Positions 47,078 through 64,000 of a stretch of 64,000 nt of DNA are shown here, one piece after another (the stretch's first letter is position 1; each line of letters begins with the position of its first letter). The DNA is from Aliiroseovarius lamellibrachiae (GTDB lineage: Bacteria > Pseudomonadota > Alphaproteobacteria > Rhodobacterales > Rhodobacteraceae). The translations under genes were made by a program, and so were the position numbers. A model generated the notes under the pieces. That model did no database searches, was not told where the DNA came from, and saw only the letters and a program-made list of their open reading frames with translations. The stretch spans positions 1 through 64,000 of the forward strand of contig NZ_JAHEVJ010000008.1 of NCBI RefSeq assembly GCF_018599245.1. Reading direction: 5' to 3'.

Positions 47078-47092
47078 TAGGTCAGCCCCGGT

Positions 47093-47113
47093 TTTTAGCA
47101 TTTTATGCCAAAA
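47093..47113. promoter_or_regulatory. Candidate MdeR/Lrp operator
   Basis: A 21-bp palindrome with arms TTTTnGCAT and ATGCnAAAA around TTT lies between the divergent regulator and methionine gamma-lyase genes, 15 bp before the regulator start. Spacing and A/T flanks fit Lrp-type sites. Confidence 0.65.
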
Positions 47114-47198
47114 TATACCCCGATACTGGCAGACTTCGCAATCCATGACCTTTCAGGCAGTGGCATTATGACGGGGAAACTCGAACCAGGAGCTTGCC

Positions 47199-48401
47199 AT
47201 GTCGACCCCAAAAGGCTTTGCCACCCGCGCCATCCACCACGCCTATAACCCGCTGGACAATGGCGGCGCGCTCACTCCGCCGCTTCACCTGACCTCTACC
47301 TTTTCGTTTGAAAGCGCTGAGGCCGGCGGTGAGATGTTTGCCGGCGAGCGCGAAGGGCATATCTATTCGCGCATCTCCAACCCCACCTGCGATCTTTTGG
47401 AACAGCGCATTGCAACCCTGGAAGGCGCCGAAGCGGGGCTGGCGTTATCTTCTGGCATGGGCGCAATCACTGCCGTTTTCTGGACGCTCTTGTCGCCGGG
47501 GGACGAGGTGATTGTGGACAAAACGCTTTACGGCTGCACCTTCGCTTTCATGCAACATGGCTTGGCAAAATGGGGCGTGAAAATCACCCATGTCGACATG
47601 ACGGAGCCAGAAAACCTCCGCACGGCCATCTCTGACAATACCCGCGTTGTCTATTTCGAAACCCCCGCCAACCCCAACATGCGGTTGGTGGACATTTCCA
47701 AAGTGTCAAAGATTGCCCATGACGCCGGTGCAACGGTGGTGGTCGACAACACATACGCCACCCCCTATTTGACCCGCCCGATTGCGCATGGCGCGGACAT
47801 CGTTGTGCATTCCGCCACCAAATATCTGGGTGGTCACGGTGATGTGGTGGCTGGCCTTGTGGTTGGCAAATTGGAACAGGTCACAGAAATCCGTCTGGTT
47901 GGCATGAAAGACATGACCGGCGCTGTGATGGCCCCCTTTAATGCAATGCTCATCCTGCGCGGACTGAAAACACTTGCCCTGCGGATGGACCGTCACTGCG
48001 CCTCGGCTATGAAAGTGGCAGATTGGCTTGAGGCACAACCCGGCGTGCAGGCCGTACATTTCCCCGGCCTAACCAGCTTTCCTCAGCACGATGTGGCCCG
48101 CGCGCAGATGGACCAACCGGGTGCGATGATTGCGTTTGAATTAGACGGTGGCATCGACGCGGGACGGCAAATGATGAACCGCCTGAACATGATCCAACGC
48201 GCGGTGTCTTTGGGGGATGCCGAAACGCTGATCCAACACCCGGCCTCTATGACCCACTCGACCTATTCGCCAGAAGAACGCGAAGCGCATGGCATCAGCG
48301 ACGGTTTGATCCGCTTGTCTGTGGGACTGGAAGAGGTGGCCGATATCATCGCCGATCTGGACGCCGCTTTGGCACCCTTCTTGGTTCAAGCCGCAGAATA
48401 A
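47199..48401 (+). CDS. megL: Methionine gamma-lyase
   Basis: PLP-dependent enzyme that splits methionine into methanethiol, 2-oxobutyrate and ammonia; 400 residues, as usual. The cysteine typical of true methionine gamma-lyases is present (Cys113 in LYGCTFAF), as are the PLP lysine Lys208 (SATKYLGGH) and DNTYATP. GGAGCTTG precedes the ATG. Downstream genes handle 2-oxobutyrate. It corresponds to mdeA of Pseudomonas putida. In marine bacteria the methanethiol links to DMSP-sulfur metabolism. Confidence 0.95.
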   Translation: MSTPKGFATRAIHHAYNPLDNGGALTPPLHLTSTFSFESAEAGGEMFAGEREGHIYSRISNPTCDLLEQRIATLEGAEAGLALSSGMGAITAVFWTLLSPGDEVIVDKTLYGCTFAFMQHGLAKWGVKITHVDMTEPENLRTAISDNTRVVYFETPANPNMRLVDISKVSKIAHDAGATVVVDNTYATPYLTRPIAHGADIVVHSATKYLGGHGDVVAGLVVGKLEQVTEIRLVGMKDMTGAVMAPFNAMLILRGLKTLALRMDRHCASAMKVADWLEAQPGVQAVHFPGLTSFPQHDVARAQMDQPGAMIAFELDGGIDAGRQMMNRLNMIQRAVSLGDAETLIQHPASMTHSTYSPEEREAHGISDGLIRLSVGLEEVADIIADLDAALAPFLVQAAE

Positions 48402-48403
48402 GG

Positions 48404-48871
48404 TTACGGGGTGCGCGCACCGCCCGCTTTGACCCGCCGGATCGGGATCGAAGACTGGATCGACGCCACCCCATCCACCTTGGTGAGCTTACCAACCAAG
48501 AAGGCTTCGAAATCTCGCAACCCTGTGGTGGCGATCCGCATCAGGTAATCCCGGTCACCCGTCATCAACCAGCAATCGACCACTTCGGGAAAACCAATAA
48601 TCGCTGTTTCAAACTTGACCAACGCGTCGTCCACCTGACGATCCAATTGGACCGAGACAAAGACAGAGACATCAAAGCCCAAGGCGGCCTCGTCAATGCG
48701 GGCCCCATAGCCGGTGATAATACCCCCCTCTTCCAACCGCCGAATGCGGCGCGCGGTAGGGGTGGGGCTGAGGCCAATTTGATCGGACAGGTCCTGCACG
48801 GATATTCGCCCCTGTTCGCCCAAATGGCGCAGAATTCGAATATCAAAGACGTCAAGATCGACAGTTTCCAC
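48404..48871 (-). CDS. Second Lrp/AsnC regulator
   Basis: The 155-residue regulator has a helix-turn-helix (LSDQIGLSPTPTARRIRRLE) and a RAM domain. It starts with GTG at 48871, with GAGGG at good spacing. It ends two bases after the stop of megL (convergent) and is divergent from the 2-oxoacid dehydrogenase gene, which it probably controls. Confidence 0.9.
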   Translation of the reverse strand: METVDLDVFDIRILRHLGEQGRISVQDLSDQIGLSPTPTARRIRRLEEGGIITGYGARIDEAALGFDVSVFVSVQLDRQVDDALVKFETAIIGFPEVVDCWLMTGDRDYLMRIATTGLRDFEAFLVGKLTKVDGVASIQSSIPIRRVKAGGARTP

Positions 48872-48886
48872 CCAATAGCCCTCTAA

Positions 48887-48919
48887 TGTTGGCGTTTTCC
48901 TTCAAGGCGCTAGCCAACA
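48887..48919. promoter_or_regulatory. Inverted repeat between second Lrp gene and mdeB-like gene
   Basis: TGTTGGC (48887-48893) and GCCAACA (48913-48919) form a perfect inverted repeat spaced by 19 bp in the divergent promoter region. It is a candidate operator of the second Lrp regulator. Confidence 0.5.
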
Positions 48920-49026
48920 GAACCACAATTGGCCGGGATGCTGCAAGGCAAACCTGTTAGACTGCCCCCTGCCCCGCGCAAAAGCCCTGCTTTTTGGCGC
49001 TGCGGCAAAGACCAAAGGACCGCATC

Positions 49027-51420
49027 ATGAACACACAATCCACCACTCCGATCACAGACATCCAACAGCTGAAAACCGTGGAGCAACGCCTGTTGTGGCT
49101 GTCCCATTGGATGATCCACCACGCCAATCATGTGCGCCCCAAGGCGGATGGGATTAAGATCGGCGGGCATCAGGCCTCTTCCGCGTCAATGGTATCGATC
49201 ATGACTGCGCTCTATTTCAACACGCTGAAACCCGAAGATCGCGTGGCCGTCAAACCCCATGCCAGCCCCATCTTTCACGCGATGCAGTATCTGATGGGCA
49301 ATCAGACCCGCGAAAAGATGGAGAATTTTCGCGGTTTCGGCGGTGTGCAAAGCTATCCTAGCCGGACAAAAGACATCGACGATGTTGATTTCTCAACCGG
49401 GTCGGTTGGCTTGGGCGTGGCAATCACATCCTTTGCCTCGATGATCCAAGATTACATCACCGCCAAGCCTTGGGGCACCGATGCCCCACAAGGCCGTATG
49501 GTGGCGCTTGTGGGCGATGCGGAACTGGACGAGGGCAACATCTATGAATGCCTTCAGGAAGGTTGGAAAAACGACCTGCGCAATACCTGGTGGATCATTG
49601 ATTATAACCGCCAATCACTGGATGGGATTGTGCACGAAGGGTTGTTTGAGCGGGTTGAAAAGATCTTTGACGCCTTTGGCTGGGACGTTGTGCGCGTGAA
49701 ACACGGCGTGCTGCAACGGGCCGCATTTCAGGAACCGGGCGGCGACAAACTGCGCGATTGGATTGATGCCTGTCCGAACCAAGACTACTCGGCCCTGACC
49801 TATATGGGCGGCGCGATTTGGCGCAAACGCTTGATGGATGATTTGGGCGATCAGGGCGACGTGACCGCGTTGATTGACGCCCGATCAGATACGGAATTGG
49901 CCGCGTTGATGGAGAACCTCGGCGGCAATTGCGTTGAGACGATGGCCGAGACCTTTGCATCCATCACCCACGACCGCCCCACCTGTTTTCTGGCCTATAC
50001 GATCAAAGGCTGGGGCACGCCGATTGCGGGTCACAAAGACAACCACGGCGGGTTGATGAACAAAACCCAATTCACGGAATGGCAAGCAAACATGGGCGTT
50101 GAAACAGGCGCGGAATGGGATCCGATGGCAACCGTTGCAGATCCCGCCGCACTTCAAGCCTATTTGGGGCAGGTTCCATTTTTCGCCAACGGCCCGCGCC
50201 GGTTTCATGACGCGCAACTGGAGGTTCCCGCAATCGAACTCAGCCCAGATCGCGAGATTTCGACCCAGATGGCCTTTGGCAAAGTGTTGGATGATTTATC
50301 TAAGGGTGACAGTGATTTGGCCGCACGGATCGTCACCACATCCCCGGATGTGACCGGTACAACCAACCTTGGCCCATGGGTGAATAGGCGCAAGCTTTTT
50401 GCCCGCACAGCACAGGCCGATGCCTTTATCGAACACCGCATTCCGTCCACCGCCAAATGGGAATTCACCCCCGAAGGGCAGCACATCGAACTTGGTATCG
50501 CCGAGATGAACCTGTTCCTGTTGCTGGGCGCCGCCGGCCTGTCACACAGCCTGTTTGGCAAGCGATTGATCCCAATTGGAACGGTCTATGATCCCTTTGT
50601 GTGTCGCGGCTTGGATGCGCTCAATTACGCCTGTTACCAAGATGCGCGGTTCATGATTGTCGGCACACCATCCGGGGTCACATTGGCCCCCGAAGGCGGC
50701 GCGCATCAGTCGATTGGCACACCGCTGATTGGCATGTCCCAAGACGGTCTGGCCGCCTTTGAACCCGCCTTTGCGGACGAGCTTGCGGTAATCATGCGGT
50801 GGTCCTTTGACTATCTGCAACGTGACGACGAAGGCGACCCGGATGAACGCACATGGCTGCGCGACGAAACCGGCGGGTCGGTGTATCTGCGCCTGACCAC
50901 CAACCCCATTGAACAGCCCGGAAAACGCCATGACGATGCCTTCCGGCAGGGCGCAATTGATGGTGGTTACTGGCTGCGCAAACCCGGCCCCAATTGTGAC
51001 GTTGTGATCGCCTATCAGGGTGCTGTCGCGCCAGAGGCGATCAAAGCGGCGGGGATGATTGGCGAAACCCGGCGTGACGTTGGCGTTTTGGCTGTGACAT
51101 CCGCTGACCGTCTGAACGCTGGTCTGACAGCGGCACAACGCGCGCGGTCGCGTGGAAATGTAAATGCCCAGTCACATGTAGAGCATCTGATGCAAGACCT
51201 GCCGCCACACTGCAAATTGGTCACCGTCATCGACGGGCATCCTGCCACTTTGTCTTGGCTTGGCGGTGTCGCAGGCCATCAAACCATCCCGCTGGGGGTG
51301 GAGCATTTCGGGCAAACCGGCACAATTGGGGACCTTTATCGCCACCACGGAATTGATGCCGCGGCAATCGTCGAAAAGGTTGCTGGGCTGACCCAAGGTC
51401 GGCGTGTCGTCAGCCACTAG
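49027..51420 (+). CDS. 2-oxoacid dehydrogenase E1 (MdeB-like, 2-oxobutyrate type)
   Basis: The 797-residue protein is a homodimeric thiamine-diphosphate E1 of the AceE type. The ThDP-binding GDAELDEGN...N segment (LVGDAELDEGNIYE then IIDYNRQSLDG) and EGQHIELGIAEMN are visible. In Pseudomonas putida the homologue mdeB lies beside methionine gamma-lyase and oxidises 2-oxobutyrate. No E2 or E3 gene is adjacent, so it probably uses the pyruvate dehydrogenase core. ATG 49027 is preceded by AAAGGA. Compared with AceE (about 890 residues) it is shortened. Confidence 0.88.
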   Translation: MNTQSTTPITDIQQLKTVEQRLLWLSHWMIHHANHVRPKADGIKIGGHQASSASMVSIMTALYFNTLKPEDRVAVKPHASPIFHAMQYLMGNQTREKMENFRGFGGVQSYPSRTKDIDDVDFSTGSVGLGVAITSFASMIQDYITAKPWGTDAPQGRMVALVGDAELDEGNIYECLQEGWKNDLRNTWWIIDYNRQSLDGIVHEGLFERVEKIFDAFGWDVVRVKHGVLQRAAFQEPGGDKLRDWIDACPNQDYSALTYMGGAIWRKRLMDDLGDQGDVTALIDARSDTELAALMENLGGNCVETMAETFASITHDRPTCFLAYTIKGWGTPIAGHKDNHGGLMNKTQFTEWQANMGVETGAEWDPMATVADPAALQAYLGQVPFFANGPRRFHDAQLEVPAIELSPDREISTQMAFGKVLDDLSKGDSDLAARIVTTSPDVTGTTNLGPWVNRRKLFARTAQADAFIEHRIPSTAKWEFTPEGQHIELGIAEMNLFLLLGAAGLSHSLFGKRLIPIGTVYDPFVCRGLDALNYACYQDARFMIVGTPSGVTLAPEGGAHQSIGTPLIGMSQDGLAAFEPAFADELAVIMRWSFDYLQRDDEGDPDERTWLRDETGGSVYLRLTTNPIEQPGKRHDDAFRQGAIDGGYWLRKPGPNCDVVIAYQGAVAPEAIKAAGMIGETRRDVGVLAVTSADRLNAGLTAAQRARSRGNVNAQSHVEHLMQDLPPHCKLVTVIDGHPATLSWLGGVAGHQTIPLGVEHFGQTGTIGDLYRHHGIDAAAIVEKVAGLTQGRRVVSH

Positions 51421-51467
51421 GAGAGGCCTGAACGGGGTGGACTTATTCGCCCCGTTCAGAGCAACAT

Positions 51468-52334
51468 TCAGGCTTCCTGTGGCGCAATCTTATCTTGGGT
51501 GCGCAGTTCGAAATCTGACGCGTCATGACGTTCATGAAGCTGGTTTTCAAGCGGCCCCCAAGTGCGGTTCACTTTGCGCCCACGCTGCACCGCAGGGCGA
51601 TCCAGAATGTCATATGCCCAACGGCGCAGGTTCTCATAGCTTTCGACCTGTAAAAACTCGCCCGCGTCATAGGCATCCCCCATCACAAGGTTCCCATACC
51701 ACGGCCATGTCGCCATATCCGCGATGCTGTATTCATCCCCGCCAAGATAGCGATGTTCAGCAAGTTCCCGGTCTAAAACATCCATCTGACGCTTGGTTTC
51801 CATGGTAAATCGGTCGATCGGATATTCAAACTTTTCAGGGGCATAGGCATAGAAATGGCCAAACCCACCACCCAAATAGGGGGCGGACCCCTGAAGCCAG
51901 AACAGCCAATTCATCACCTCGGTCCGGTGGGCGGGATCCGCTGGTAAAAAGCGGCCAAATTTTTGCGCGAGATAAAGCAAAATCGCCCCGCTTTCAAAGA
52001 CCCGACTGCCGGTGTCTGTGTCGAAAAGTGCCGGGATTTTTGAGTTTGGATTGACCGCAACAAACCCGCTTGAGAATTGGTCCCCGTCACCGATCTTGAT
52101 CAAATGCGCGTCATACTCTGCCCCTGCTTCGCCCTGCTCAAGCAGTTCTTCAAGCAGGATTGTGACCTTTTGCCCGTTCGGTGTTCCGAGCGAATAAAGC
52201 TGCATGGGATGCTTGCCCTTTGGCAATTCGGCATCATGCGTGGCGCCTGCGATGGGGCGGTTGATACTGGCCCATTCGCCGCCGTTTTCAGCATCCCAGG
52301 TCCAAATTTTGGGGGGAGTATATGTATTGCTCAT
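51468..52334 (-). CDS. yghU: YghU-type glutathione transferase
   Basis: The 288-residue protein has a thioredoxin-like domain with TPNGQKVTILLEE, the Thr-Pro-Asn-Gly signature of YghU/YfcG disulfide-bond reductases, NPNSKIPALFD and ESGAILLYLA, then an all-helical domain. It reduces disulfides with two glutathiones. It lies 17 bp downstream of a tetR gene on the same strand. Confidence 0.9.
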   Translation of the reverse strand: MSNTYTPPKIWTWDAENGGEWASINRPIAGATHDAELPKGKHPMQLYSLGTPNGQKVTILLEELLEQGEAGAEYDAHLIKIGDGDQFSSGFVAVNPNSKIPALFDTDTGSRVFESGAILLYLAQKFGRFLPADPAHRTEVMNWLFWLQGSAPYLGGGFGHFYAYAPEKFEYPIDRFTMETKRQMDVLDRELAEHRYLGGDEYSIADMATWPWYGNLVMGDAYDAGEFLQVESYENLRRWAYDILDRPAVQRGRKVNRTWGPLENQLHERHDASDFELRTQDKIAPQEA

Positions 52335-52351
52335 CTTGATCTCTTTCCTGC

Positions 52352-52960
52352 TCATTCGGATGCTCCACACACCCGCAAATTTTCAATTTCCCGGGCCATG
52401 TCCTCGGCCAGTTCCGCCGTTTCCAAAGCATCCGTCCCTAGGTGTAGTTCAAACCGCAAGGCTGCCAAATTGGCCTGAAATCGACGCGCCAACCGATTGG
52501 TGTTCGCCGAATCAGGAAGCTCGCCCATCTTTTGTGCGCGGGCGAAACCTGCCGCGAATTCTTGTTGCATTGCGGCCAGATAGCTCCGCGTTTTCTCAGC
52601 AATGGCAGGTTCAGTTGTCTGCGTATCGACCAATGATTTGGTCAGCATACACGCCTGACGCGCCATATCATTTGGGCTCAGTGCTGCGATCGTCCGAAAA
52701 TGTGCGGCAAGCCCGGCCAAAGGCGACGCTGCGCGCGCCATCTGGGCCCGGTGCCCCAAGCGAGATTTCTCAAAATATCGTTCCAGGGCCAGCAGATACA
52801 GGTTTTCCTTACTGGAGAAGGCCGCATAGATGCTACCTGGTTTCATCTTCAACCCAGCCTCAAGGTCCTTAAGCGACGTCGCGTGAAACCCTTTCTCCCA
52901 AAAAAGAGACATGGCCGCGTCCAACGCTTTGTCGCGATTATAGGGGGTGGCACGGGTCAT
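52352..52960 (-). CDS. TetR-family repressor
   Basis: The 202-residue regulator has the TetR helix-turn-helix (AMSLFWEKGFHATSLKDL, then MKPGSIYAAFSSKENL). It forms an operon with yghU and probably represses it until an electrophile or oxidant is sensed. A palindrome 46 bp upstream is the likely operator. Confidence 0.9.
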   Translation of the reverse strand: MTRATPYNRDKALDAAMSLFWEKGFHATSLKDLEAGLKMKPGSIYAAFSSKENLYLLALERYFEKSRLGHRAQMARAASPLAGLAAHFRTIAALSPNDMARQACMLTKSLVDTQTTEPAIAEKTRSYLAAMQQEFAAGFARAQKMGELPDSANTNRLARRFQANLAALRFELHLGTDALETAELAEDMAREIENLRVCGASE

Positions 52961-53006
52961 CGCGCTTCCTTTTCCTGCATCAAATGCACGCCCATTTCAC
53001 ACGAAT

Positions 53007-53022
53007 TTGAGCGTACACTCAA
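53007..53022. promoter_or_regulatory. Candidate TetR operator
   Basis: TTGAG, six bases, CTCAA: a 16-bp palindrome with one mismatched pair (GTAC at the centre), upstream of tetR-yghU. The gene-free part 52961-53214 holds nothing else that I recognise. Confidence 0.6.
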
Positions 53023-53214
53023 TCCCGTAGTTTCCCCAGCTGCTCAAGAATACGGGCACAGGTCTGGCGGTATGATGTGCATAGCCAGAGGCGTCACTGA
53101 CACGGCAGCGACATTCGCGGTTGAAGATGACCGTTAAAAATGGTCCGAGAACGCCAACAACGGTTTGTAATGCGTTGGTCCGCCCGCGTTGCCTTTCCCT
53201 TCCCACCGCTGTTG

Positions 53215-54342
53215 TTATTGGGGATTACAGCACCCGAAAAGATTTTCCATGTGACCCGTACTTCCAGACGGGCGCTGCAACTGAATCGACATCGAATACT
53301 GGGTATCTGACATGCCATCAGAGCATGATTTCTGGTCGATCGTACCCGTCAAAGGGTGCGCTTTGAATGCAAAGGGATATCCCCCCGATGTTGCGGGTGT
53401 AGCCATGGCCAGATGGCGCACAGGGTCGGGCCCTTCGATGAGCGAAGTGTATTGAAAACGCCGGTCCTCGCCGATTTCCAATGTCCAAAAGGGCTCGGTT
53501 CCACGGCATGTCAGCCCCAATGGAAATCCGTTTGCCGTGGCAGAGGTGGCATTCTCAGCCATGCGTGTCAGAAACCGCATGTTGATATACCCGATTTGAC
53601 CATTGAGCGTGATTTGCCCCCAGTTTCCAGATGCCCGGCCGTTGACGTTTACGACGGAACCCGGATTAAGGCTGCCAATTTGATTGCCACCTGCCCTCGG
53701 CGCGTCACGCACCCAAAGAACATCACCTGACGCAACGCCAGACACCGAAAACACCGCCGGCAGAGGGCCACCATCAGGCCCCACGCCTGGGGTCGCATCC
53801 GGCATAGGTTCGGGTGTCGACCTCATCGCGGCAAGATAGGCAGTGCTCACCCAACCCACGTCAGATCCAAATGCGATCATCGCCCAGTCGCCCCCCCTGT
53901 CAAATTGTATGACGTGAACAGCTGTATGATCAGCTAAGACGCCCAAACGACCAAATGCCGTTCCTGCGCCATCGCGCACAACAAGCCCCCCATCCGGGTC
54001 ACCCACCGCAATACCGGTTACAACATTGGGGCCAAGGCGCGGGCGCTGCGTGTCAGCCCCGCTTGCGGGCGCGGCGAGATACTTGGAAGCCACCCAGTAA
54101 ATTCGCCCTTGATGCAAAATTTGCGCCCACCTGCCGTCTTCATTGTAGGCCAAGACATTGACATGCGCGTGTTCGAAAAGATCCCCACGGTCGGGATAAG
54201 AGGCACCAGGCCCGGCACGCAGATTAAGCGTGTCACCGTCAGCAATATTGACAACCTCCATCATCTCAGCGGATGCGGTTGTGATCGTGAGTGTAAGGGC
54301 GGCCGCGAAGATGGCGACAGGGGTATATCGTTGGGGGAACAA
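53215..54342 (-). CDS. Secreted protein with three SH3 domains and a COG3650-like end
   Basis: The 375-residue product has a signal peptide (about 1-25), three bacterial SH3 domains (about 29-90, 110-170, 197-258; motifs LNLRAGPGASYP, LVVRDGAGTAFG and LWVRDAPRAGGN) and a C-terminal domain that begins CRGTEPFWTLEI, known from envelope proteins of unknown function. SH3 domains often bind cell wall peptides. The start is TTG; a stop codon lies a few codons upstream, so no ATG is possible for the signal peptide. It is the last gene of a secreted-protein group. Confidence 0.82.
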   Translation of the reverse strand: MFPQRYTPVAIFAAALTLTITTASAEMMEVVNIADGDTLNLRAGPGASYPDRGDLFEHAHVNVLAYNEDGRWAQILHQGRIYWVASKYLAAPASGADTQRPRLGPNVVTGIAVGDPDGGLVVRDGAGTAFGRLGVLADHTAVHVIQFDRGGDWAMIAFGSDVGWVSTAYLAAMRSTPEPMPDATPGVGPDGGPLPAVFSVSGVASGDVLWVRDAPRAGGNQIGSLNPGSVVNVNGRASGNWGQITLNGQIGYINMRFLTRMAENATSATANGFPLGLTCRGTEPFWTLEIGEDRRFQYTSLIEGPDPVRHLAMATPATSGGYPFAFKAHPLTGTIDQKSCSDGMSDTQYSMSIQLQRPSGSTGHMENLFGCCNPQ

Positions 54343-54419
54343 TGGCTGGGTACTCGCTCAATGATGTTGCAGATTGTGATGCACGGCCCATCGCAAGCGA
54401 GAGCCGTGCAAACCAACGC

Positions 54420-54833
54420 TTATTTAAAGCAGTTTTTGGCAACAGCGCCTGCCGCCGCCATATGACCTTTTCCTTGCCCGACCGCTTTGGTCATGACCTC
54501 TACAAGCTCTTGAGGTTTGCAGGTTTGCGCCCCAATCTTACGATAGGCATCGCGGGATTTCTTAAATCCATCGACGTCAATTTTGCCAATATCTTTAAGT
54601 GTTCGGGCAAATTCATGAGAGGCCCCGGTCTCTGGATTTGGCAATTCAACTTCGATCGCCGCACCTTCGCCTGCAACACTCTCCAATGGGCATGGGCCAC
54701 CGAACGTACACTGTAGCCAACATCCGGGCGGATCCGAGGCTTGCCAGCAGCTTGTAATCGCCCAGGCCGAACTCATCGACATCATCAAACTGGTTGCGGC
54801 AATGACGCCGCCGAAGAAGGTTCTTTTCATCAT
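54420..54833 (-). CDS. Secreted protein with six cysteines, 137 residues
   Basis: I do not recognise a family. A signal peptide (about 1-25, ending SSAWA) precedes a mature part with six cysteines: four near the start (SCWQ, GCWLQC, GPCPLE) and two later (QTCKP, NCFK). An even number suggests three disulfides. The rest is helical (FKKSRDAYRKIG, QELVEVMTKAVG). It lies between another six-cysteine protein and the SH3 protein on the same strand. Confidence 0.75.
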   Translation of the reverse strand: MMKRTFFGGVIAATSLMMSMSSAWAITSCWQASDPPGCWLQCTFGGPCPLESVAGEGAAIEVELPNPETGASHEFARTLKDIGKIDVDGFKKSRDAYRKIGAQTCKPQELVEVMTKAVGQGKGHMAAAGAVAKNCFK

Positions 54834-54878
54834 GGTATTTTCCTGTTGTGGTAAAATTGAGAGAACATGGATGCCTTG

Positions 54879-55274
54879 CTATTTGATGGGCTCTTCCGGC
54901 AGGGGGACGGGTTTCTCAAGGCAGACCGGCGGACAGCCCGAAGACTTCTGAATTTTGGGATCTGGCAGAATGATTGACATCTTTGGCTTGCGCCGATGTG
55001 TTTTTGCAAGGTCTGGGTTTTTTGCAATCTCTGCATCTAAGGCCAGCATCGATTTGATGTCTTTTGCTTCGATTGCACCTTGGGGCATAAGCCCGCCAAA
55101 GCACCTCGATCCTTCGGGCACTTCGATGTCTTCGCATGGGTAGGCCGTGGTGGTGCAGGACCACCCATTCGGCCCACAAAGCACATCTGCGCCCGCCACC
55201 AACGGAGCGCCCGCCACCGCGAACATGAATGCACCCGCCGTCATTGCCGTCAGTAATTTACCTTGAAAAAACAT
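54879..55274 (-). CDS. Secreted protein with six cysteines, 131 residues
   Basis: I do not recognise a family. The signal peptide ends near VAGA, and the mature part has six cysteines (VLCG, SCTT, PCED, RCFGG, GCPPVCLE), a Pro-rich C-terminus (PVPLPEEP) and a basic middle (THRRKPKMS). It follows the giant protein gene by 132 bp on the same strand and is likely co-expressed. AAGGA precedes the start. Confidence 0.75.
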   Translation of the reverse strand: MFFQGKLLTAMTAGAFMFAVAGAPLVAGADVLCGPNGWSCTTTAYPCEDIEVPEGSRCFGGLMPQGAIEAKDIKSMLALDAEIAKNPDLAKTHRRKPKMSIILPDPKIQKSSGCPPVCLEKPVPLPEEPIK

Positions 55275-55406
55275 AATCCAATCCTTCGTCTGTAATCTCT
55301 TTGGGTTCTATCGTGCCAACCAAGCTGGCTCGTATTTGATGAACCACGCTTGGTTGTTATGCGAATTCGCCCGTTTGATATCAGATATCATTCCTGTAAA
55401 TTACTG

Positions 55407-58400
55407 TTATTTAAGGCATATTCCATTTATCCTTAGGCGACATTTTGCGGCGTCACCGCTGTGCTCCGAAGGGGATGCCGCGTCAGTACCAGGGACGCTT
55501 GGTTTGGGCCGTGGGGCGATCTTGATCGTCAGGCATTTTCCACCAACCATCGGCAATCCGTTACGGCAACGACATTGGGTCGGGGACACTTTTTTCGCAT
55601 TTTTCTGGTCACGGCAGACACATTGATTGCCGCGCAAACGGGTCGATGCTTTTTCACACGCCAAACCTGCCGCGTCAGGCACAGGTTTAGGTGTTGGGAC
55701 CGCCTCAGCGACACAGCCTTTGCCTTTGACCAACCGAAAGCCCCGACCACATTGGCAGGAGGTCGCACTGCGGCGCTCCATATGATCAAAACGGCAGGCG
55801 CATTTGCCGTCAGACTTCACCGTGGTCGAAAGATTGCACTGCAATGGCGGAGCAGGCATTGGCGGCAGTGGCGCAGACACACAGCTTTGTGTGCCGGCGA
55901 TCTGCAAGGGCAATCCGAGGGCTGCAAACAAACGATCATCAAAATCTGTGCTGCGTGGCAACCCAAGTGAAGCTTGCAGCTGAGCCAAGGCCGCGAAGGT
56001 TTTCTTGCCCGGTTTACCATCCACCGGACCCGCATTCAGCCCGCGAGCATTCATGATTTGCTGAATGGCGGCCACACGTTGGGTGCGATCCGCGGGGATG
56101 CCCACCGCCGCACAGTTTTCAACTGTTCCACCCTTGCGCAACCCTTTCACACCCATCCTTAGGTCCAGATGTGTGCTTGCCCCGGCGGCCAAGGTCAGCA
56201 AAGGGTGGCTGCAAGAAATACTGTCACGCACGGGTCGGGCACAGGCCCAGCCCCCTTGAGATAACAACGCGGCGGATTTCACACCAGGTTTGCCAACCGT
56301 ATCGGTAATGGTGAGCGGACCTGAATAGGGCGCACCGCCGGTGTTGGTGACTGAAAGCCGGAAGCCACAGTCATAGGACTGGCTGGCCCGGTTGGGTTCA
56401 CATGGTCCGGTTTGCTCTTTGTGGATGCTCAAAACCGATGGTTGGATTGTTGGCTGAACCACGGTCTCCTGCCCAAACGGAGCATGATCTTCGTCATCCC
56501 CCATGTAAACACTGGCCGCTTTTGGCATCGATTGGATCTCGGCCATCAGCGCTTCTTTTTGTGGTTGCGTCATTCCCTTTCGCTCGGGGCAATACGCTCG
56601 TGCGATTGCCTCAAAGGCCGGAATAATCTGGGAAGATTCTGAAATGTGAACAACGTCGGTCACTTGCGGATCGAAGGCAACATTTCCACCTGCGGTGACT
56701 TGGTTTGGCCCAAGAAGCGTGGACAAGCCGGTGGCAACAGACGTGTATCCAAGCGCGATTCCGACAACCCGGCTGCCTTGGTTGCGCAAAGCATTCAGCG
56801 CAGGCACCGCCGCATTTATGTTTTGTACTGCGTTGCCCGCGAAAGGCTTGCCCGGAACGCCATCAGAGATGAACAAGACCAACGGTTTATCTGCGATGCC
56901 GGAAACGACGCTGTTTGTCGCAGACATGCCAACCTGCCAATCTTCGTTCCCCCATGCGGTGATGCCACCAATAGCGGCCTCTAAGCTGGGCGATGGAAGT
57001 ACCGCTGATGGCCCTCCGATGACATTTGCCGATTGATTGAAAATAATCGCACCCGATTTTGAACCGCCGCCTTCAAAGATGCGCAGCGCAGCAATGAGGG
57101 CCTGTTTGGTCAACGGCAAGCGGTTGTGCAGGTTCATTGATCCAGAGCGATCAACTAGAAACAGCGTATCAAAACCACATCCACTGGTGGCGACAGGTGG
57201 AACACCTGTATCGATGATCGGGTCCACCTCAATAACACCCGTCCCAGGCGTCGGTGTCAAAGGTGGGGTAACGGTTCCGGTCAGAGGACCCGCACCACCC
57301 ACAGATGCAATTGGGAAAGTCACAGGAACACAAGATTTACCATTACCACCCACGGGTCCATGTAAGCCCAGTGCAGCAACATCGACGAACGCACAGTTTT
57401 GGGCTTGTGCCCCCCCCAACGGACGTCCGGCTGGCCCTTGATAGCTGCCGGTAAACGGAATGGTCAGAACACCACCCGGCGCGGCATTGATATCATCAGT
57501 GGTGATATCGCAGGCACTGGATGTTCCGCCGTTCATTTGACCACCACCACAGGCGTTTGTCGGGCCCATAACCTGGCCATAAAACGCGGTTTGAGTGGCA
57601 GATGACATCAGCTCGTCCGTGACGCGAACCTGTTGCCCAGCAGGCAGGTTTTGCCCCGTTATGGTCAAGGTACACGCAACGGTCCATTGGCCCGGTGTCG
57701 ATTGCTGAGCGGGCGAACACGTCTTTACCAGATCGATGCTTGGATCTTTGGGATTTGGGGTTGGGGCGATTTCAAAACAGTCGCTCGCGACTGGTGCTGG
57801 CAGCCCTGCTGCCGTTGGCGCACCCACTGAAATTTCGACACAATTTTCGGCCCCAAATGTGTCCATCGTGCTGTTCATCATAAGATCAACGGTCAGGCTG
57901 GATGTGCCGGAGGCTGGGAACTGATTGCCCTGAATGCCACAATACGGCGTGTTGCCCTGACCGACCGGTCCATATGGGGGGGATGCACAATCCCAGGGGT
58001 CAGCCGACGTAATATTTTGGATCGAAGCAGCGCCAGGGTTTTGGCCGAAATGCAGATCCTCTGTCACCCACAATGGGCCCGTGAATGGCACGCCATTTGT
58101 GGTCACGATCAGGGTGCATTGATACGCTTGGAACCAAGTGTTTGGCCCCATGACGATGCGTTCCCCGGTCGCTTTGCAGGATTTTTCGACGTCGAAGGTG
58201 GTCGAAGGATCAGGCTCGTCAATGATCACACAATCTGCGGATCCAACGACCTGATCGCCGATCCTCACCTGAGCGCAGTTCTTGAAATCATCTTTGCCCA
58301 AAACGGCCGTGGGGATCGACAGAAAGGCGTCAATCCGGTGGCCCGTATTGCCGTTGAAATCAGCCGCAGAAATCGTACAGCTCGCACCAGTTGTATAAGG

Positions 58401-61187
58401 TGCTTGGCCACAATCCCACCCATTCGGCAGTGTCGGTGTGCCTTGCAAATTCACGATGTATTGTGCGGCAGATGCGCCGGACGAGGTCGAGAAAAGCTCA
58501 TCAAAAGTAAGCGCGCTGGAAATTGGCGTTCCACCTGTCTGGGTGATGTAGATCGAACAGGCATACAGCGCATTTCCCCCATCTACGCCCGCGAGGCGGC
58601 AGCCCTTTTTCAGCGAAAACTGCGGGTCGCTATCGGGTTTCCATGTGGTGCTTTCGCAGTTGCCCTTCACTTCATGTGGCGTCCCAGTTGCGGGCGTATA
58701 AACCCCGTCGACACAGTTGCGCCACGCGATGGGCTCATCGCCCGTTTCGGCGAACAGATGAAAACCAATGGTCTCGGACCCGCTCGGATCGAAATCATTG
58801 CCTGCGATTGAGCAATCGGTCACCGAGGTCGGCACATTCGGCGTACAGCTCCATGCATTGCCCTGCTGCAAGATGTCGACAATCGCGGCGTTGCTGCTGC
58901 CCGTCACCGCAGAGGCATCTTCGGTGAAGGTGAAAACACCGCTAAACGGCACGGGGGAGGCGGTCACCGTAATTTTACAATCCCAGCCCAGACCGCGGAC
59001 ACCGTCACGTTCTTCTTCAAAGCTGCGGCCACAGGATTTCTTGATCGAAATTTCTTTAAGTTGAGGATCAGTTGAGACCTCTGGCTTGATCACCGTGTCC
59101 ACGCAATGCGCGTCGCTGGGAAACGTTCCCGCCGCTGTTTGAGCCGCACCTGTGGCGCAGTTTGTCCATTCGATGGGTTGGTCCGGGTCGATCACTTCTG
59201 TGAAAAGCTGATAGGATACAACATGCGGGGCCGTCATGGTTGAACCATCAAGTTGGCATTGCAGGTGGTCAGTCGTCAGCCCCGTACAGTTCGGCTCTGA
59301 TGCGCTGACAAATTGCGCTGTGCCGATGGAAATGTTTGAGGCGTCATCGTCAAAGGTGAAGGTTCCCGAAAATGGCGTCGGGGTGACGATGATTTCAGCG
59401 CGACAATCCCAAGTATAGCCTTGTGCGCCCTGATGCGTTGCCGGTGCTGGCGCATTACAGGTTTTCTGAACCTCGACGCTTTCGATCTTGGGTTGCTCTA
59501 TCACCTTTGGCAGGTCCAGGATCACGCAATTGTCGGGCAGCCCGGCCGCTGAGCTTGATTGTGGGCTGCGCATCGGGGGCTGGCTGCTGCGCAGCCCAAT
59601 GGCATCAATATAGGACGTGGGCAGGATGTCTGTCATCGGGCAGTTGGCGACCTGACCGCTTGATTGATCGGTGGTAAACTGGAAGCTTACGTTCAGGGTT
59701 GAGCTGCCGCCAGCCGCGAACATGTCGGTTGCTGAAAGCTCGCACAGGCCGGTGGAACCCGGCGCATTTAGATTGGCGTCGGCACAATTCCAAGGCTCAT
59801 TTGAGGTGACATTCATCATCGCGCCAGAAATCGTCGCCGTCATCGGAGGTAATGCGCCAAAGCCGTCGCCCACCATTAGGATGCTATCGGTGGTCAAGTC
59901 CGTGCCGGTGACCTCGATCTGGCAATTCAAAGTCATCGGTCCAGAGGTCACAGGCGCAATTGGGCTACATGTTTTCACGACCGAGGAACGCGGGATCCAT
60001 TGCGCTGATACGCAGTTTCCAGCAATGGGGGTGACGTTGCCTGCGCCATCGTCATAAGCCCCTTCAACACAGTTTTGCATCGGATATGTGTCTTGCAAGT
60101 CTGTCGCGGTCACGAAGATTGAATAGGACAGCGTCTCTGTGCCGCTCGTGTCAAAATTCGCTCCAATGATCGTGCAACTTGCCCCTAGAGAGCAATCGAA
60201 ACTGCCCGTTGCAGAACCCGAAGAGACCACTTCGCTCGCAGTTGTTGAGGTCGGCGTATACAGATCTGTGACCGTTAAAGATCCGCCAAAAGGCGCGATC
60301 GGAACCGTGACATCGACAGTGCATTCCCACATCTGGCCAACTTGTCCGTTATGGATCGATGATGTGGTTGGGACACATGACTTTGTCAGGTCGACGTCTT
60401 GCGGATCAAGATCGGGGACTGACGGCACGGGGGGCGGATTTGGTGTGCCTGCAGGGATGGTCGGGCAATAGCTGTTGTCGACGTAATGGGCGAAAGCGTC
60501 ATCGAGAATATAGCCCGGTCGGGCGATGTAGGCCCACGCATATTGCTCCGTCGCCTCAACCGCATAGTATTTTTTCAGTGGGGTCCACTGCTCAGCCACA
60601 AATTGGCCACCCGTGTTCCCGATGGTCGAGATGTTGTCCATCGCATAGGTCGGATCCGGATTGGTCGACAGGCCACCATAGAACGGATTAATTGACCCAA
60701 ACCGAAACAAGTCGCCAGAGGCACTCGTACCAGCGGTCACTCCGCCAAACGCAATGCAGCCCGTGTAAGGCGCGGTGATGCGCTGCCCAACGACACTCCA
60801 GAAGTGTTTCGTATTGAGCCGAATGTAATGCCCATCTTGCGCGGCGCCAGCAAAGGTCACATCCGATTCAGGAAGGTTCCAAGGTGTGATCTGTCCAAAC
60901 GGGCTATTGTACAAGGTGACAGGTTGGCCACCGGGGCCATCGACCTTCACCACCGAAAGTTCACGGTAGTTGGTCGTGCTTTGCGATGTTGGGTTTGGGT
61001 TTTCATGCGCGCGCATCCACCCTGTTAAAGTAACCCCGACATTGTCGCCATAGTTGGGCGCCGTAACCGCCTCGAAGTCGCCATTGATCAACAGATTTTG
61101 CGAAACCACCGCTGTGGGTGCAACTGCACTGATGCAAAAAGCGTATACAAGTCGGCGCAAATAGGCCGCAGAAAAACGTCGAAGCAT
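55407..61187 (-). CDS. Giant secreted protein: cysteine repeats, VWA domain, peptidoglycan-binding domain
   Basis: The 1926-residue product starts with a signal peptide (about 1-29) and an N-terminal domain (30-250; NLLINGDFEAV) like those of carbohydrate-binding or adhesin heads. Eight DUF11-like repeats of about 140 residues follow, each opening with Lys-x-Cys or similar (Cys 271, 407, 577, 719, 863, 1004, 1157, 1596). A von Willebrand A domain (about 1335-1535) with an intact metal site (DRSGS at 1346-1350) sits between repeats 7 and 8. A peptidoglycan-binding domain (about 1700-1760) and two tandem six-cysteine motifs (1784-1825 and 1844-1885) end the protein. It is probably an adhesin or matrix-binding protein held at the wall. 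Confidence 0.88.
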   Translation of the reverse strand: MLRRFSAAYLRRLVYAFCISAVAPTAVVSQNLLINGDFEAVTAPNYGDNVGVTLTGWMRAHENPNPTSQSTTNYRELSVVKVDGPGGQPVTLYNSPFGQITPWNLPESDVTFAGAAQDGHYIRLNTKHFWSVVGQRITAPYTGCIAFGGVTAGTSASGDLFRFGSINPFYGGLSTNPDPTYAMDNISTIGNTGGQFVAEQWTPLKKYYAVEATEQYAWAYIARPGYILDDAFAHYVDNSYCPTIPAGTPNPPPVPSVPDLDPQDVDLTKSCVPTTSSIHNGQVGQMWECTVDVTVPIAPFGGSLTVTDLYTPTSTTASEVVSSGSATGSFDCSLGASCTIIGANFDTSGTETLSYSIFVTATDLQDTYPMQNCVEGAYDDGAGNVTPIAGNCVSAQWIPRSSVVKTCSPIAPVTSGPMTLNCQIEVTGTDLTTDSILMVGDGFGALPPMTATISGAMMNVTSNEPWNCADANLNAPGSTGLCELSATDMFAAGGSSTLNVSFQFTTDQSSGQVANCPMTDILPTSYIDAIGLRSSQPPMRSPQSSSAAGLPDNCVILDLPKVIEQPKIESVEVQKTCNAPAPATHQGAQGYTWDCRAEIIVTPTPFSGTFTFDDDASNISIGTAQFVSASEPNCTGLTTDHLQCQLDGSTMTAPHVVSYQLFTEVIDPDQPIEWTNCATGAAQTAAGTFPSDAHCVDTVIKPEVSTDPQLKEISIKKSCGRSFEEERDGVRGLGWDCKITVTASPVPFSGVFTFTEDASAVTGSSNAAIVDILQQGNAWSCTPNVPTSVTDCSIAGNDFDPSGSETIGFHLFAETGDEPIAWRNCVDGVYTPATGTPHEVKGNCESTTWKPDSDPQFSLKKGCRLAGVDGGNALYACSIYITQTGGTPISSALTFDELFSTSSGASAAQYIVNLQGTPTLPNGWDCGQAPYTTGASCTISAADFNGNTGHRIDAFLSIPTAVLGKDDFKNCAQVRIGDQVVGSADCVIIDEPDPSTTFDVEKSCKATGERIVMGPNTWFQAYQCTLIVTTNGVPFTGPLWVTEDLHFGQNPGAASIQNITSADPWDCASPPYGPVGQGNTPYCGIQGNQFPASGTSSLTVDLMMNSTMDTFGAENCVEISVGAPTAAGLPAPVASDCFEIAPTPNPKDPSIDLVKTCSPAQQSTPGQWTVACTLTITGQNLPAGQQVRVTDELMSSATQTAFYGQVMGPTNACGGGQMNGGTSSACDITTDDINAAPGGVLTIPFTGSYQGPAGRPLGGAQAQNCAFVDVAALGLHGPVGGNGKSCVPVTFPIASVGGAGPLTGTVTPPLTPTPGTGVIEVDPIIDTGVPPVATSGCGFDTLFLVDRSGSMNLHNRLPLTKQALIAALRIFEGGGSKSGAIIFNQSANVIGGPSAVLPSPSLEAAIGGITAWGNEDWQVGMSATNSVVSGIADKPLVLFISDGVPGKPFAGNAVQNINAAVPALNALRNQGSRVVGIALGYTSVATGLSTLLGPNQVTAGGNVAFDPQVTDVVHISESSQIIPAFEAIARAYCPERKGMTQPQKEALMAEIQSMPKAASVYMGDDEDHAPFGQETVVQPTIQPSVLSIHKEQTGPCEPNRASQSYDCGFRLSVTNTGGAPYSGPLTITDTVGKPGVKSAALLSQGGWACARPVRDSISCSHPLLTLAAGASTHLDLRMGVKGLRKGGTVENCAAVGIPADRTQRVAAIQQIMNARGLNAGPVDGKPGKKTFAALAQLQASLGLPRSTDFDDRLFAALGLPLQIAGTQSCVSAPLPPMPAPPLQCNLSTTVKSDGKCACRFDHMERRSATSCQCGRGFRLVKGKGCVAEAVPTPKPVPDAAGLACEKASTRLRGNQCVCRDQKNAKKVSPTQCRCRNGLPMVGGKCLTIKIAPRPKPSVPGTDAASPSEHSGDAAKCRLRINGICLK

Positions 61188-61500
61188 TGAAAGGTCCTAT
61201 CTAGCCAACAGCCATCCCCCCGCGCGGAGGGATCGTACGAATGTATGTTGGTAAAAAATGAGCGTGAACTACCATATGGGTATTGATGGCAAAGTTACGG
61301 TCACATTCTTCAGCGGAAATGACCACACATCCTACTTGTTCTTTAAGCGTCTGTGCTGCTACGCTCAAAATTCAGTGTAACCCCCTATTGGAAAACAGCT
61401 ATTTTCCCGAATTTCACCCAGCCCCTTTCCCCGACGTCAAAGGTCGCCTGACGAGCCGAAGAAATGTCGTACTGCGCGCGAAAACAGGACACAGACAGCC
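61188..61500. other. Divergent promoter region of the giant gene and the LuxR gene
   Basis: This 313-bp interval separates the giant gene and the luxR-type gene. It holds a near-perfect 20-bp palindrome (61214-61233) and, at about 61273, the 8-bp palindrome CCATATGG. No small gene is supported. Confidence 0.6.
61214..61233. promoter_or_regulatory. 20-bp palindrome upstream of the giant gene
   Basis: The sequence ATCCC-n-CCGC / GCGG-n-GGGAT is a palindrome with one mismatched pair (18 of 20 bases symmetric), 26 bp upstream of the giant gene. It could be an operator or a leader hairpin. Confidence 0.6.
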
Positions 61501-62580
61501 ATGATCTCAGACCCAAATAATTGCATAAGCGAACTGAAGGCCACATTGGAATTGGCCACAACCGACGCCCAACAATGGGACGCCGCCTGCGATATTGTGG
61601 TCGAGTTGTTTGGCGCAACCGGCGCGTTGCTGCCCTCTTCCAATCCACATTTTCGCGGGATTTGGGTGTCTGGAACCAAGAATATGAAGGCAGCGATGGC
61701 TGAATATGTTTCGGATCGCTGGAACCTAAAGGATCCGCGCGAAGGCTTGACACAGATGATGTTTGATCAAGGCTATGCCACCGATGATCAAATTTTTCCT
61801 GACCGCGAAGCAAGGTCGAAATTACCCTTCTATCGCGACTTTCTCCTTCCCTTGAACTTCGGAAACGTCTGCCTCATTCGCATTCTCACGCCAAACGGGT
61901 ATTGGCCGTTGACCCTGCATTTTGGAAATGATCACCCCCCGTTGTCGGCGCAGGATATTGAGCTGATCAAAACCATTCAGCCCATGTTTGAACATGCGGC
62001 CAAACGTGCGGCCGAGGTTGCACATCAGCGTATTTTTGACTTCGCACAGTTTTTCCGGGGCACAGATTCCGAGGTTCTGTTGTTTGATGCTGATGGGAAT
62101 CAATGCTTTAGCGTCGATGCCGCCGGGCGCACACAGCCCAATCGTAAACTTGCAACATTGATGCCACAAGAAATTGGCGAAAGCCTTAAAACCGAGTTTA
62201 AAGACGTGTTGACCAGTGATCCAGGCATGTCACTGAGCAAAGCGTATCAGTTCCAGGAAGGCACCAAATCAATCAACGTTTTGGTCATTCAAATTCCGCC
62301 AACGCTGCGCCACTTTTTCATGCAGTTCAAAGCCTGCGCCATCCGCACAGAATGCAGCGCCACACTGGCAATCAAGCAACGCGAATTGCGCGAAACATAC
62401 GGCCTGTCGGAAAAGGAAATCAGTACAGTTGCGTTATTGGCCGAAGGGAAAACACCCGATATGATTGCCAACCTTCTAAGCGTGAAACCAGCCAGCGTGC
62501 GCCAGAGATTAAAGCTTGTCTTTCAAAAAACACAGGTGAGCAGCCAAATCGAATTGGTCGCGTTATATGGACGTCTTTAA
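61501..62580 (+). CDS. LuxR-family transcription regulator
   Basis: The 359-residue regulator ends with a LuxR helix-turn-helix (about 300-357; GLSEKEISTVALLAEGKTPD, IANLLSVKPASVRQRLK). The N-terminal 280 residues show no known autoinducer domain and look like a GAF/PAS sensor. It is divergent from the giant protein gene and is the likely regulator of that locus. Confidence 0.85.
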   Translation: MISDPNNCISELKATLELATTDAQQWDAACDIVVELFGATGALLPSSNPHFRGIWVSGTKNMKAAMAEYVSDRWNLKDPREGLTQMMFDQGYATDDQIFPDREARSKLPFYRDFLLPLNFGNVCLIRILTPNGYWPLTLHFGNDHPPLSAQDIELIKTIQPMFEHAAKRAAEVAHQRIFDFAQFFRGTDSEVLLFDADGNQCFSVDAAGRTQPNRKLATLMPQEIGESLKTEFKDVLTSDPGMSLSKAYQFQEGTKSINVLVIQIPPTLRHFFMQFKACAIRTECSATLAIKQRELRETYGLSEKEISTVALLAEGKTPDMIANLLSVKPASVRQRLKLVFQKTQVSSQIELVALYGRL

Positions 62581-62811
62581 TGTTGGCCGCGAGAAATTAA
62601 TTGGCGTTGGTTCTTCCAGCGCATTTGCGCATGAAAAAGGTTTTCCGTCGGTTCCCTTAAAACGCCCAAACCCAGTCATTTCGCAACACAAACGCCCCAC
62701 CACAGCATCACAGACGATCGTGATCATATCTTCAGATGAAGACGGCCTGCGCGCGGGCTGTTTGATGTCTTTGGCGATGCTCTCGTCAGGGCGCTTGGGT
62801 GTCTTTTTCAT
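62563..62811 (-). CDS. Possible small hypothetical protein
   Basis: An 82-residue frame starts MKKTPKRPDESIAKDIKQPA, with GAGGAG spaced well before its ATG, and overlaps the end of the luxR-type gene tail to tail by 18 bp. It is basic at the N-terminus, with no recognisable domain. The good ribosome site is the main support. The rest of 62812-62984 shows no gene. Confidence 0.4.
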   Translation of the reverse strand: MKKTPKRPDESIAKDIKQPARRPSSSEDMITIVCDAVVGRLCCEMTGFGRFKGTDGKPFSCANALEEPTPINFSRPTLKTSI

Positions 62812-62984
62812 CACCACTCCTCAGGGGGAACGACACGCCCGAAACCCTCTCTTCTCAAACATCGCTATTTGGACCCAAGGGTGCCGACGGCAGACACTTG
62901 CCATAAGCACCGAACCGAAGGCTTATGGGGCATTGGCGAAACAGTATGGGCAGCGCGAAGCGCTATGCGCCGCCCTATAACAGT

Positions 62985-64000
62985 TCAGAAATCGAGGTTT
63001 TCGACCGACAACGCGTTTTGCTGGATAAATTCGCGACGCGGCTCCACCACATCGCCCATCAACTTGGTAAAGATGTCATCCGCATCGGCCAGATCACCCA
63101 CCTTCACCTGAAGCAGGGTGCGGGCTTCGTGGTCCAGCGTGGTTTCCCACAGCTGATCGGGGTTCATTTCACCTAAGCCTTTGTATCGCTGCAAGGTCAG
63201 CCCTTTTTCACCCTCGGCCAAAATGGCACGCAACAGATCAATAGGGCCCTGCACCAGCAGCTCGCGTTCCTTGCGGTTCAGCTTGGCTGAGTCTTTGTAA
63301 ATGTCGCGGGTCTCCATCGACACCTCAGACAACCGCCGTGCCTCACCAGATCGAAGCACAGCACCATCCAAGGTGCGGATTTCTTCCACACCGCGCAACA
63401 CACGCGCCAAACGGATGCCGTGATCTTGGGTGATCCGCCCCTGCCAACCTTGTTCGTATTCGACAGCGACCTGATCCAAACGCTTGGCCACATCATCTGC
63501 AACACGCTGCAAATCAGCATCAGCACGGCCAGGATCAAATGCACCGGCAAGGGCGGCTTGTTCCAGAATATTGCGCGGGTAATGCGTTGGAAACGCGTCT
63601 AGAATCCGCTTAAAGTTACGAGCAGCCTCGACAACACGGGCCAAATCCGCCCCGGCGATTTCTTCCCCAGAAGGCAGGCGCAAAACAGCGCCATCGATCC
63701 CTTGCGCAATCAAGTATTCCTCAAGCGCATTTTGGTCTTTCACGTAAACTTCCGACTTGCCACGCGCCACTTTGTAAAGCGGCGGCTGCGCGATATAAAG
63801 GTATCCGCCTTCGATCAATTCCGGCATTTGACGGAAGAAGAAGGTCAGCAAAAGGGTGCGAATATGCGCACCATCCACATCTGCATCGGTCATGATAATG
63901 ACCTTGTGATAGCGCAGTTTCGAGATGTCGAACTCATCCCGACCAATCCCTGTGCCCAGCGCGGTGATCAACGTGCCGATCTCTTGGCTGCCCAACATCC
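62985..64000 (-). CDS. gyrB: DNA gyrase subunit B, C-terminal part (cut by window edge)
   Basis: The 337 or more visible residues are the Toprim and C-terminal parts of GyrB. The metal-binding DADVDGAHIRTLLLTFFFR is followed by GYLYIAQPPLYKV, and near the end come QRYKGLGEMNPDQLWETT and the family terminus EPRREFIQQNALSVENLDF. The N-terminal ATPase domain lies beyond the window. An insertion of about 160 residues (about 75-235) between Toprim and tail is common in alpha- and gammaproteobacteria. Confidence 0.97.
   Translation of the reverse strand, partial: MLGSQEIGTLITALGTGIGRDEFDISKLRYHKVIIMTDADVDGAHIRTLLLTFFFRQMPELIEGGYLYIAQPPLYKVARGKSEVYVKDQNALEEYLIAQGIDGAVLRLPSGEEIAGADLARVVEAARNFKRILDAFPTHYPRNILEQAALAGAFDPGRADADLQRVADDVAKRLDQVAVEYEQGWQGRITQDHGIRLARVLRGVEEIRTLDGAVLRSGEARRLSEVSMETRDIYKDSAKLNRKERELLVQGPIDLLRAILAEGEKGLTLQRYKGLGEMNPDQLWETTLDHEARTLLQVKVGDLADADDIFTKLMGDVVEPRREFIQQNALSVENLDF

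Follow-up and report, generated by a model that had tools for sequence, protein, structure and literature searches.

An adhesin-like fibre with CLIPPER-like repeats and a peptidoglycan-binding domain inside the last one may be encoded by a transferable locus of Aliiroseovarius lamellibrachiae

Stalks braced by isopeptide bonds are known mainly from the pili and adhesins of Gram-positive bacteria, and their occurrence in Gram-negative bacteria is a recent finding, according to the text of PMC12617251. The closest described relative of the proteins considered here is the CLIPPER domain (DUF11, PF01345), for which the same text gives a crystal structure, 9IFR, of a stalk domain of the Acinetobacter adhesin B9T28_05395, with a triad of Lys715, Asp748 and Asn806 at spacings of 33 and 58 residues; it describes this triad as not universal even within DUF11, and disulfides as frequent in the CLIPPER domains of Pseudomonadota (PMC12617251). 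In a stretch of 64,000 nucleotides from the alphaproteobacterium Aliiroseovarius lamellibrachiae (assembly GCF_018599245.1, contig NZ_JAHEVJ010000008.1; the window), we analysed a locus that consists of a LuxR-type gene and the genes of a very large exported protein (the giant), two small exported proteins and a protein with SH3 domains. With a probability of about 50%, we consider it a transferable locus for an adhesin-like fibre that has a cross-linked stalk, a wall anchor and an exchangeable tip.

A preliminary description of the window had listed these five genes, and we confirm them and their positions, including the 1926-residue length of the giant, the six cysteines of each small protein and the SH3 repeats; the signal peptides that it assigned to the four minus-strand proteins are visible, as judged by eye. 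It had the LuxR-type gene facing the other four, which does not hold, as this gene is divergent from the giant gene and back-to-back with it. The block is also wider than was claimed, reaching position 52350 and including a TetR gene (Table 1). An exact short-peptide scan of one genome per species (84,980 species) gave three confirmed loci, in Thalassobius sp. I31.1 (L039), Pacificibacter marinus (L040) and Celeribacter halophilus (L041), and a further locus, L054 in genome G318, encodes a giant that shares 92% identity with the Thalassobius one. These five loci are a lower bound, since the scan misses distant relatives.

Like CLIPPER proteins, the giant is a long exported protein with tandem repeats, in which Lys, Asp/Glu and Asn follow in the same order and whose modelled fold, by alignment of models, is a CnaA-like sandwich. 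The preliminary count of eight repeats was borne out by a profile built from them, which at E<=1e-5 placed 36 repeats in the five giants (8 in the window and 8, 8, 6 and 6 in the relatives); the window's own count is not independent and only the relatives check it, and these amount to fewer than four independent ones, as L039/L054 and L040/L041 are close pairs. Repeats 3 and 4 are missing in L040 and L041. The Lys is found in all 36 repeats (32 aligned, and four just outside the local alignment and read from the sequence), as is the Asn, while one column holds an acid in 36/36 (22 Asp, 14 Glu), with an Asp within one column in 33. The six Cys columns are occupied in 33/33, 36/36, 34/36, 34/36, 36/36 and 27/27 of the aligned cells. 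Between repeats 1-7 and repeat 8 the identity is 19-26%, with the Lys, four Cys, the Asn and the following Cys invariant.

Unlike in CLIPPER, the triad spacings are longer (36-41 residues from Lys to the acid and 62-77 from the acid to Asn), each repeat has six near-invariant Cys, and the last repeat has a peptidoglycan-binding domain inside. The repeats also remain under the Pfam cut-off: one of the eight window repeats matches PF01345 at all (E 0.023; 15.5 bits against a cut-off of 24.6), and for this reason we call them CLIPPER-like and not members of the family. When they were compared by hhalign with four DUF11 repeats of a Ciceribacter protein, which itself matches PF01345 at 2.6e-41 and whose four repeats keep Lys, Asp and Asn, the probability was 95.8 (E 7.9e-9). 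The earlier label "DUF11-like" is thus right as to the kind of domain, by profile-profile comparison and modelled fold, although Pfam does not detect it. A PDB sequence search with the repeats gave a single superoxide dismutase row (E 0.14). We read each repeat as a CLIPPER-like domain, predicted to form a Lys-Asn isopeptide bond aided by the nearby Asp/Glu and to pair its six Cys into up to three disulfides; repeats cross-linked in this way would make a stiff stalk.

The second characteristic of the giant concerns its last repeat. In repeat 8, PG_binding_1 (PF01471) follows the Asn-Cys strand and precedes the final Cys strand, and the peptidoglycan-binding domain of the preliminary description is supported by Pfam in the window giant, which scores above the cut-off, with L039-L041 below it (17.7-18.6 bits). 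In the model of this unit (the anchor cassette), the sandwich is the better part and its last strand (model residues 482-489) comes after the inserted helices; VIA-align matched 122 of the 123 residues of CLIPPER 9ifr over model residues 296..490. Because PG_binding_1 lies in the hairpin of the last repeat, between the putative isopeptide-Asn strand and the final strand, the wall anchor would be held within a cross-linked domain, and a cysteine-rich tail would follow it.

The cassette recurs behind other N-termini, mostly in the later part of the protein, with about 410 residues after it in L057 and 277 in L042. The alignment of ten sequences from nine loci has both flanking Cys invariant and, by eye, Lys and Asn retained in 8/10; 10/10 match PG_binding_1 and 2/10, each taken singly, match DUF11. 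A class-wide search at E<=1e-15 gave matches in the own genome and in three others of 385, of which G531 and G635 have the whole cassette and the third the PG-binding part only; matches restricted to that part (L033-L037, L059, L087-L090) were excluded from the cassette count. The plasmid protein of Ciceribacter thiooxidans (NZ_CP059897.1, L042) and the proteins of L055-L058, L085 and L086 share with the giant the sandwich into which PG_binding_1 is inserted ahead of the last cysteine strand and differ from it in their N-terminal parts, which by eye are coiled-coil-like in L058, L085 and L086. Beside L055-L058, to which this search was limited, no LuxR or full-length SH3 relative was found.

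Two groups of these proteins deserve mention on their own. Genome G336 encodes two neighbouring cassette proteins (L055:5910-10322 and 13308-14621) of 1471 residues with 65 Cys and 438 residues with 24 Cys, in a gene setting unlike that of the giant. L058:4443-9605, L085:4493-8422 and L086:5814-10739 are long proteins with repeated Cys-x-x-Cys and, by eye, coiled-coil-like stretches, and with the cassette near their ends; they represent another family of long envelope proteins.

We found no description of a wall-binding domain inserted in an isopeptide-type sandwich in the literature covered, which included few subscription papers, and no publication joining DUF11 to peptidoglycan-binding, VWA or Roseobacter, or isopeptide to Rhodobacterales; the main text of the CLIPPER/DUF11 papers PMC12617251 and PMC9210967 does not mention PG_binding. 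The giant might also be secreted into the medium or a biofilm matrix, where its wall-binding domain would bind neighbouring cells or fragments. This would agree with its signal sequence and with the absence, by eye, of a membrane anchor or sorting motif, but most of the proteins whose N-termini are unrelated have the cassette in their later part, which suggests that it anchors the producer's own protein, and we regard release as improbable.

The third line of evidence is the exchange of modules between close relatives. L040 and L041 are 83-95% identical in all other shared domains, 76% in the signal segment and 32% in the head, and the L040 head is 73% identical to that of the window. L039 and L054 share 95-100% identity apart from repeat 1 (42%). 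Compared with these two, the window giant is 83-90% identical in repeat 7 and the VWA domain, 42-73% in repeats 2-6, repeat 8, the peptidoglycan-binding part and the tail, and 30-33% in the head and repeat 1. In bins of 40 codons, the DNA has sharp drops of identity at the same places. Modules thus look to have been swapped by recombination, and the parts that meet a changing partner would then be the head and repeat 1. As a separate observation, window positions 56553-57746 (repeat 7 and VWA) are far nearer to L039/L054 than the remainder is, suggesting that this block was exchanged also.

The main rival explanation sees the giant as a periplasmic or envelope scaffold, held on the peptidoglycan by PG_binding_1 and the SH3 partner without ever reaching the outside, whose cross-links would strengthen the envelope. 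Its Sec-type N-terminus (by eye), the PG_binding_1 and SH3_3 domains and its many Cys, which suit the periplasm, are compatible with this, and no exporter gene was recognised among the frames of the block. However, head and repeat 1 appear to have been exchanged in copies that are otherwise near-identical, as is typical of parts that face a changing partner outside, and the locus is rare (full length in 2/394 family genomes), unlike a general scaffold; we therefore hold the scaffold to be doubtful. An adhesin-like fibre fits best because of the combination of predicted covalent bracing, swapped tip and wall anchor.

In layout the giant agrees with fibrillar adhesins, being long and having a stalk of repeats with a head at one terminus. 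The head, of about 230 residues before the repeats, has no Pfam match in the window giant, so no known adhesive domain was recognised in it, and its predicted structure is poor (mean predicted local distance difference test score 49.1). The tail of the window giant has no Pfam match, and a PDB sequence search with the giant gave nothing at E<=0.1. The top Foldseek rows, GH3 glucosidases with more than 400 columns at a root-mean-square deviation above 20, were disregarded. As for the VWA domain, the metal site had been described as intact, and this could not be upheld: VWA_2 is below the Pfam cut-off (19.7 against 27) and, although DxSxS and the later Asp are present as in the VWA proteins of the same family, the Thr position is Glu, whereas Thr stands there in all 11 proteins chosen for alignment from loci L005-L038. 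Its absence from two of the giants makes this domain dispensable.

Table 1. Features of the locus in the window. Residue numbers refer to the giant; a dot indicates no strand.
Feature	Positions	Strand	Remark
Whole presence/absence block, 10.6 kb (TetR, SH3, two small genes, giant, LuxR)	52350..62979	.	Missing as a unit in congener G156 (L079)
TetR-type regulator	52352..52960	-	Pfam TetR_N; within the missing block
SH3 protein, 375 aa, three SH3_3 and C-terminal domain	53215..54342	-	Pfam
Small exported protein A, 137 aa, 6 Cys	54420..54833	-	L040 and L041 encode a distant homologue immediately upstream of SH3
Small exported protein B, 131 aa, 6 Cys	54879..55274	-	Homologue search empty
Giant exported protein, 1926 aa, 67 Cys	55407..61187	-	Orthologues L039, L040, L041, L054
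Cysteine-rich tail, 1770-1926, C-x-C motifs of EGF-like look (by eye)	55410..55880	-	Cys kept in the four giants of alignment A1
Anchor cassette: CLIPPER-like repeat 8 (1584-1697 and last strand near 1769-1777) with PG_binding_1 inserted	55857..56438	-	
PG_binding_1 domain, 1702-1757, inside repeat 8	55917..56084	-	Pfam 24.2 bits against 23
VWA domain, about 1333-1545	56553..57191	-	Absent in L040, L041
CLIPPER-like repeats 2-7, 400-1294	57306..59990	-	Lys, acid, Asn each, and six Cys columns
CLIPPER-like repeat 1, 262-399	59991..60404	-	Differs between L039 and L054
N-terminal head, about 30-260, exchangeable	60408..61100	-	L040/L041 32% identical here
Conserved 9-mer TGGTAGTTC, candidate regulator site	61266..61274	-	Once per locus, 5/5, same alignment place
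LuxR-type regulator, 359 aa	61501..62580	+	GerE 22.5 bits

The giant is a single copy in its own genome, and its distribution is patchy. Matches at E<=0.001 were obtained in 38 of 149 family genomes (one genome per genus), and among the matches listed, all except the own genome hit only the VWA or PG-binding part. At the genus level, only the own genome of 21 has a full-length giant, and six others match the PG-binding or VWA part only; the profile of the C-terminal part detects 7/394 family genomes at E<=1e-8, with the whole profile matched in the own genome and G318. The order of divergent LuxR-type gene, giant and then SH3 gene is kept in 5/5 loci, and the conserved unit is these three genes; in L039 the contig ends within the SH3 gene, whose last stretch is unlike the other loci. 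The patchy distribution could mean that the giant is carried along as a neutral passenger, a surface gene gained horizontally and now without function. Against this, the genes are open, except for the cut SH3 gene of L039, the triad is in every repeat and the gene order is the same in the five loci, which makes a passenger the least probable of the explanations, and a very improbable one.

The five loci are chromosomal, and no flanks are shared between them. No tblastn match at E<=1e-10 was found between any two of the five loci for flanking frames of >=120 residues, in flanks of about 1-8 kb per side (in L039, nothing past the SH3 gene; in the window, frames above 40000). The DNA similarity of L040 and L041 spans LuxR, the giant except its head, the small genes and SH3, and about 1.1 kb on either side of the locus has no match. 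In L054, a DDE transposase frame adjoins the LuxR gene and an outer-membrane beta-barrel gene (OMP_b-brl, L054:5822-6529) follows the SH3 gene; in the window, L040 and L041, SH3 is followed by frames that, by eye, seem unrelated. Other settings for the locus were rejected: there was no match in phages, and patterns taken from the C-terminal part led to no confirmed relative in viral_contigs; no plasmid-borne copy of the giant was found beyond the Ciceribacter cassette, nor any of LuxR at E<=1e-20; and there was no PADLOC match for a defence system.

An empty site was identified in the congener G156 (L079), whose gyrB end is 98% alike, the highest among congeners. Here, gyrB and a GST gene are adjacent and the whole block is cleanly absent, with window positions 40472-52349 aligning to L079 at 89.9% and 62980-63998 at 88.8% (nucleotides) and the junction at L079 1019/1022. 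Because both flanks align and meet, we consider 52350-62979, including the TetR gene, as one presence/absence block; TetR is inside the block in the own genome only, with no tblastn match in L039-L041 or L054. Between the ends of the block there is no direct or inverted repeat of 7-14 bases, only a single 6-base match, and no integrase among the block frames whose families were searched. In five of the six congeners compared (L080-L084), gyrB is the sole syntenic gene and other genes lie beyond, which makes them uninformative; other window genes find weak matches at the protein level (22-28% identity) in L080 and L083. The absence of the block from 20 congeners and nearly all family genomes favours gain over loss, to which a deletion in G156 may be the alternative.

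Of the other members of the conserved unit, the SH3 protein has a C-terminal domain that occurs in many family proteins, and its orthologues are 49-59% identical. Only its own genome, of 149 in the family, has it at full length, and 61 others give partial matches, most of them covering the common SH3 and C-terminal-domain region; a second protein of this common kind is encoded in the own genome (G000:C17:89256-89798). In the fibre, it would be a second wall- or stalk-binding partner. The LuxR-type protein has a helix-turn-helix at residues about 297-354 and an N-terminal part without Pfam match. As to its class, GerE (PF00196) is slightly under the cut-off of 23.5 bits, and a profile of four such proteins matched DesR (E 2.4e-5) and NarL (E 0.0019) in the PDB over the helix-turn-helix region. 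It is 52-56% identical in L039-L041, present in L054 also, and at E<=1e-30 found in 1/149 family genomes, its own. This divergent regulator would switch the operon, and a candidate site is the 9-mer TGGTAGTTC, which in the window precedes the start of the giant by 79 bases and for which we reckon a chance expectation of about 0.5 per 64 kb on both strands. Its fixed place in the five loci argues for constraint, though two pairs of loci are closely related. Promoter-like sites (8, against 5.9 in shuffles, standard deviation 2.5) and terminator-like sites (8 against 12.5) were not above chance.

The region between the giant and SH3 genes is a variable slot; it holds two small frames in the window and in L040 and three in L041, and it is empty in L039 and L054. 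The small genes were consequently ruled out as core parts, and their proteins are not fixed members of the system. Protein A has its distant homologue at the same place in L040 and L041, and its family is found in 1/394 family genomes (the own) and in 3/4 of the locus-bearing genomes checked. Protein B gave no homologue, and its comparisons with the other slot proteins and with protein A showed no homology (Z -0.7 to 0.4), in agreement with the view that the two are unrelated. Pfam gave no match for protein A and one sub-threshold row for protein B, and NCBIfam nothing above its cut-offs for the locus proteins. The slot proteins L040:12339-12776 and L041:12732-13172 have a twin-arginine-type N-terminus and WCGPCK, a motif of thioredoxin; a thiol-disulfide helper for a disulfide-rich fibre is possible, and a family search with the L040 copy gave no support.

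That the slot holds differing small frames in three loci could also mean that the activity lies in these small proteins, as toxins, bacteriocin-like peptides or enzymes, which the giant would display or deliver. However, the fibre genes are retained in L039 and L054 although the slot is empty there, and both window proteins are without a PHROG, PADLOC or above-cut-off Pfam/NCBIfam family, so that we judge a payload quite improbable. The four-protein disulfide-linked assembly proposed earlier is supported in part; we read it as the adhesin-like fibre, and the small proteins, absent from two of the five loci, do not belong to it as fixed members; they would be variable accessories.

Taken as an adhesin-like fibre, the giant would be exported through its N-terminal signal sequence and present the head as an exchangeable business end; most likely it would serve to attach to a polymer, a surface or another cell. 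Only tentatively do we extend this to a wall-tethered Gram-negative fibre on a horizontally moving locus, in which every stalk domain would carry one isopeptide bond and three disulfides, the tip would be swapped as a module, the peptidoglycan-binding anchor would lie in the last hairpin of an isopeptide domain, the load path would be covalently braced, and the cassette would be a general holder of unrelated N-terminal parts on the wall. A wall-binding domain inserted in an isopeptide-type sandwich would be an anchoring solution of which we found no description in the literature covered. The locus would be a compact transferable system that offers a natural experiment, with near-identical pairs whose main difference is the head or repeat 1, and comparing the tips of such pairs would show directly what the head binds.

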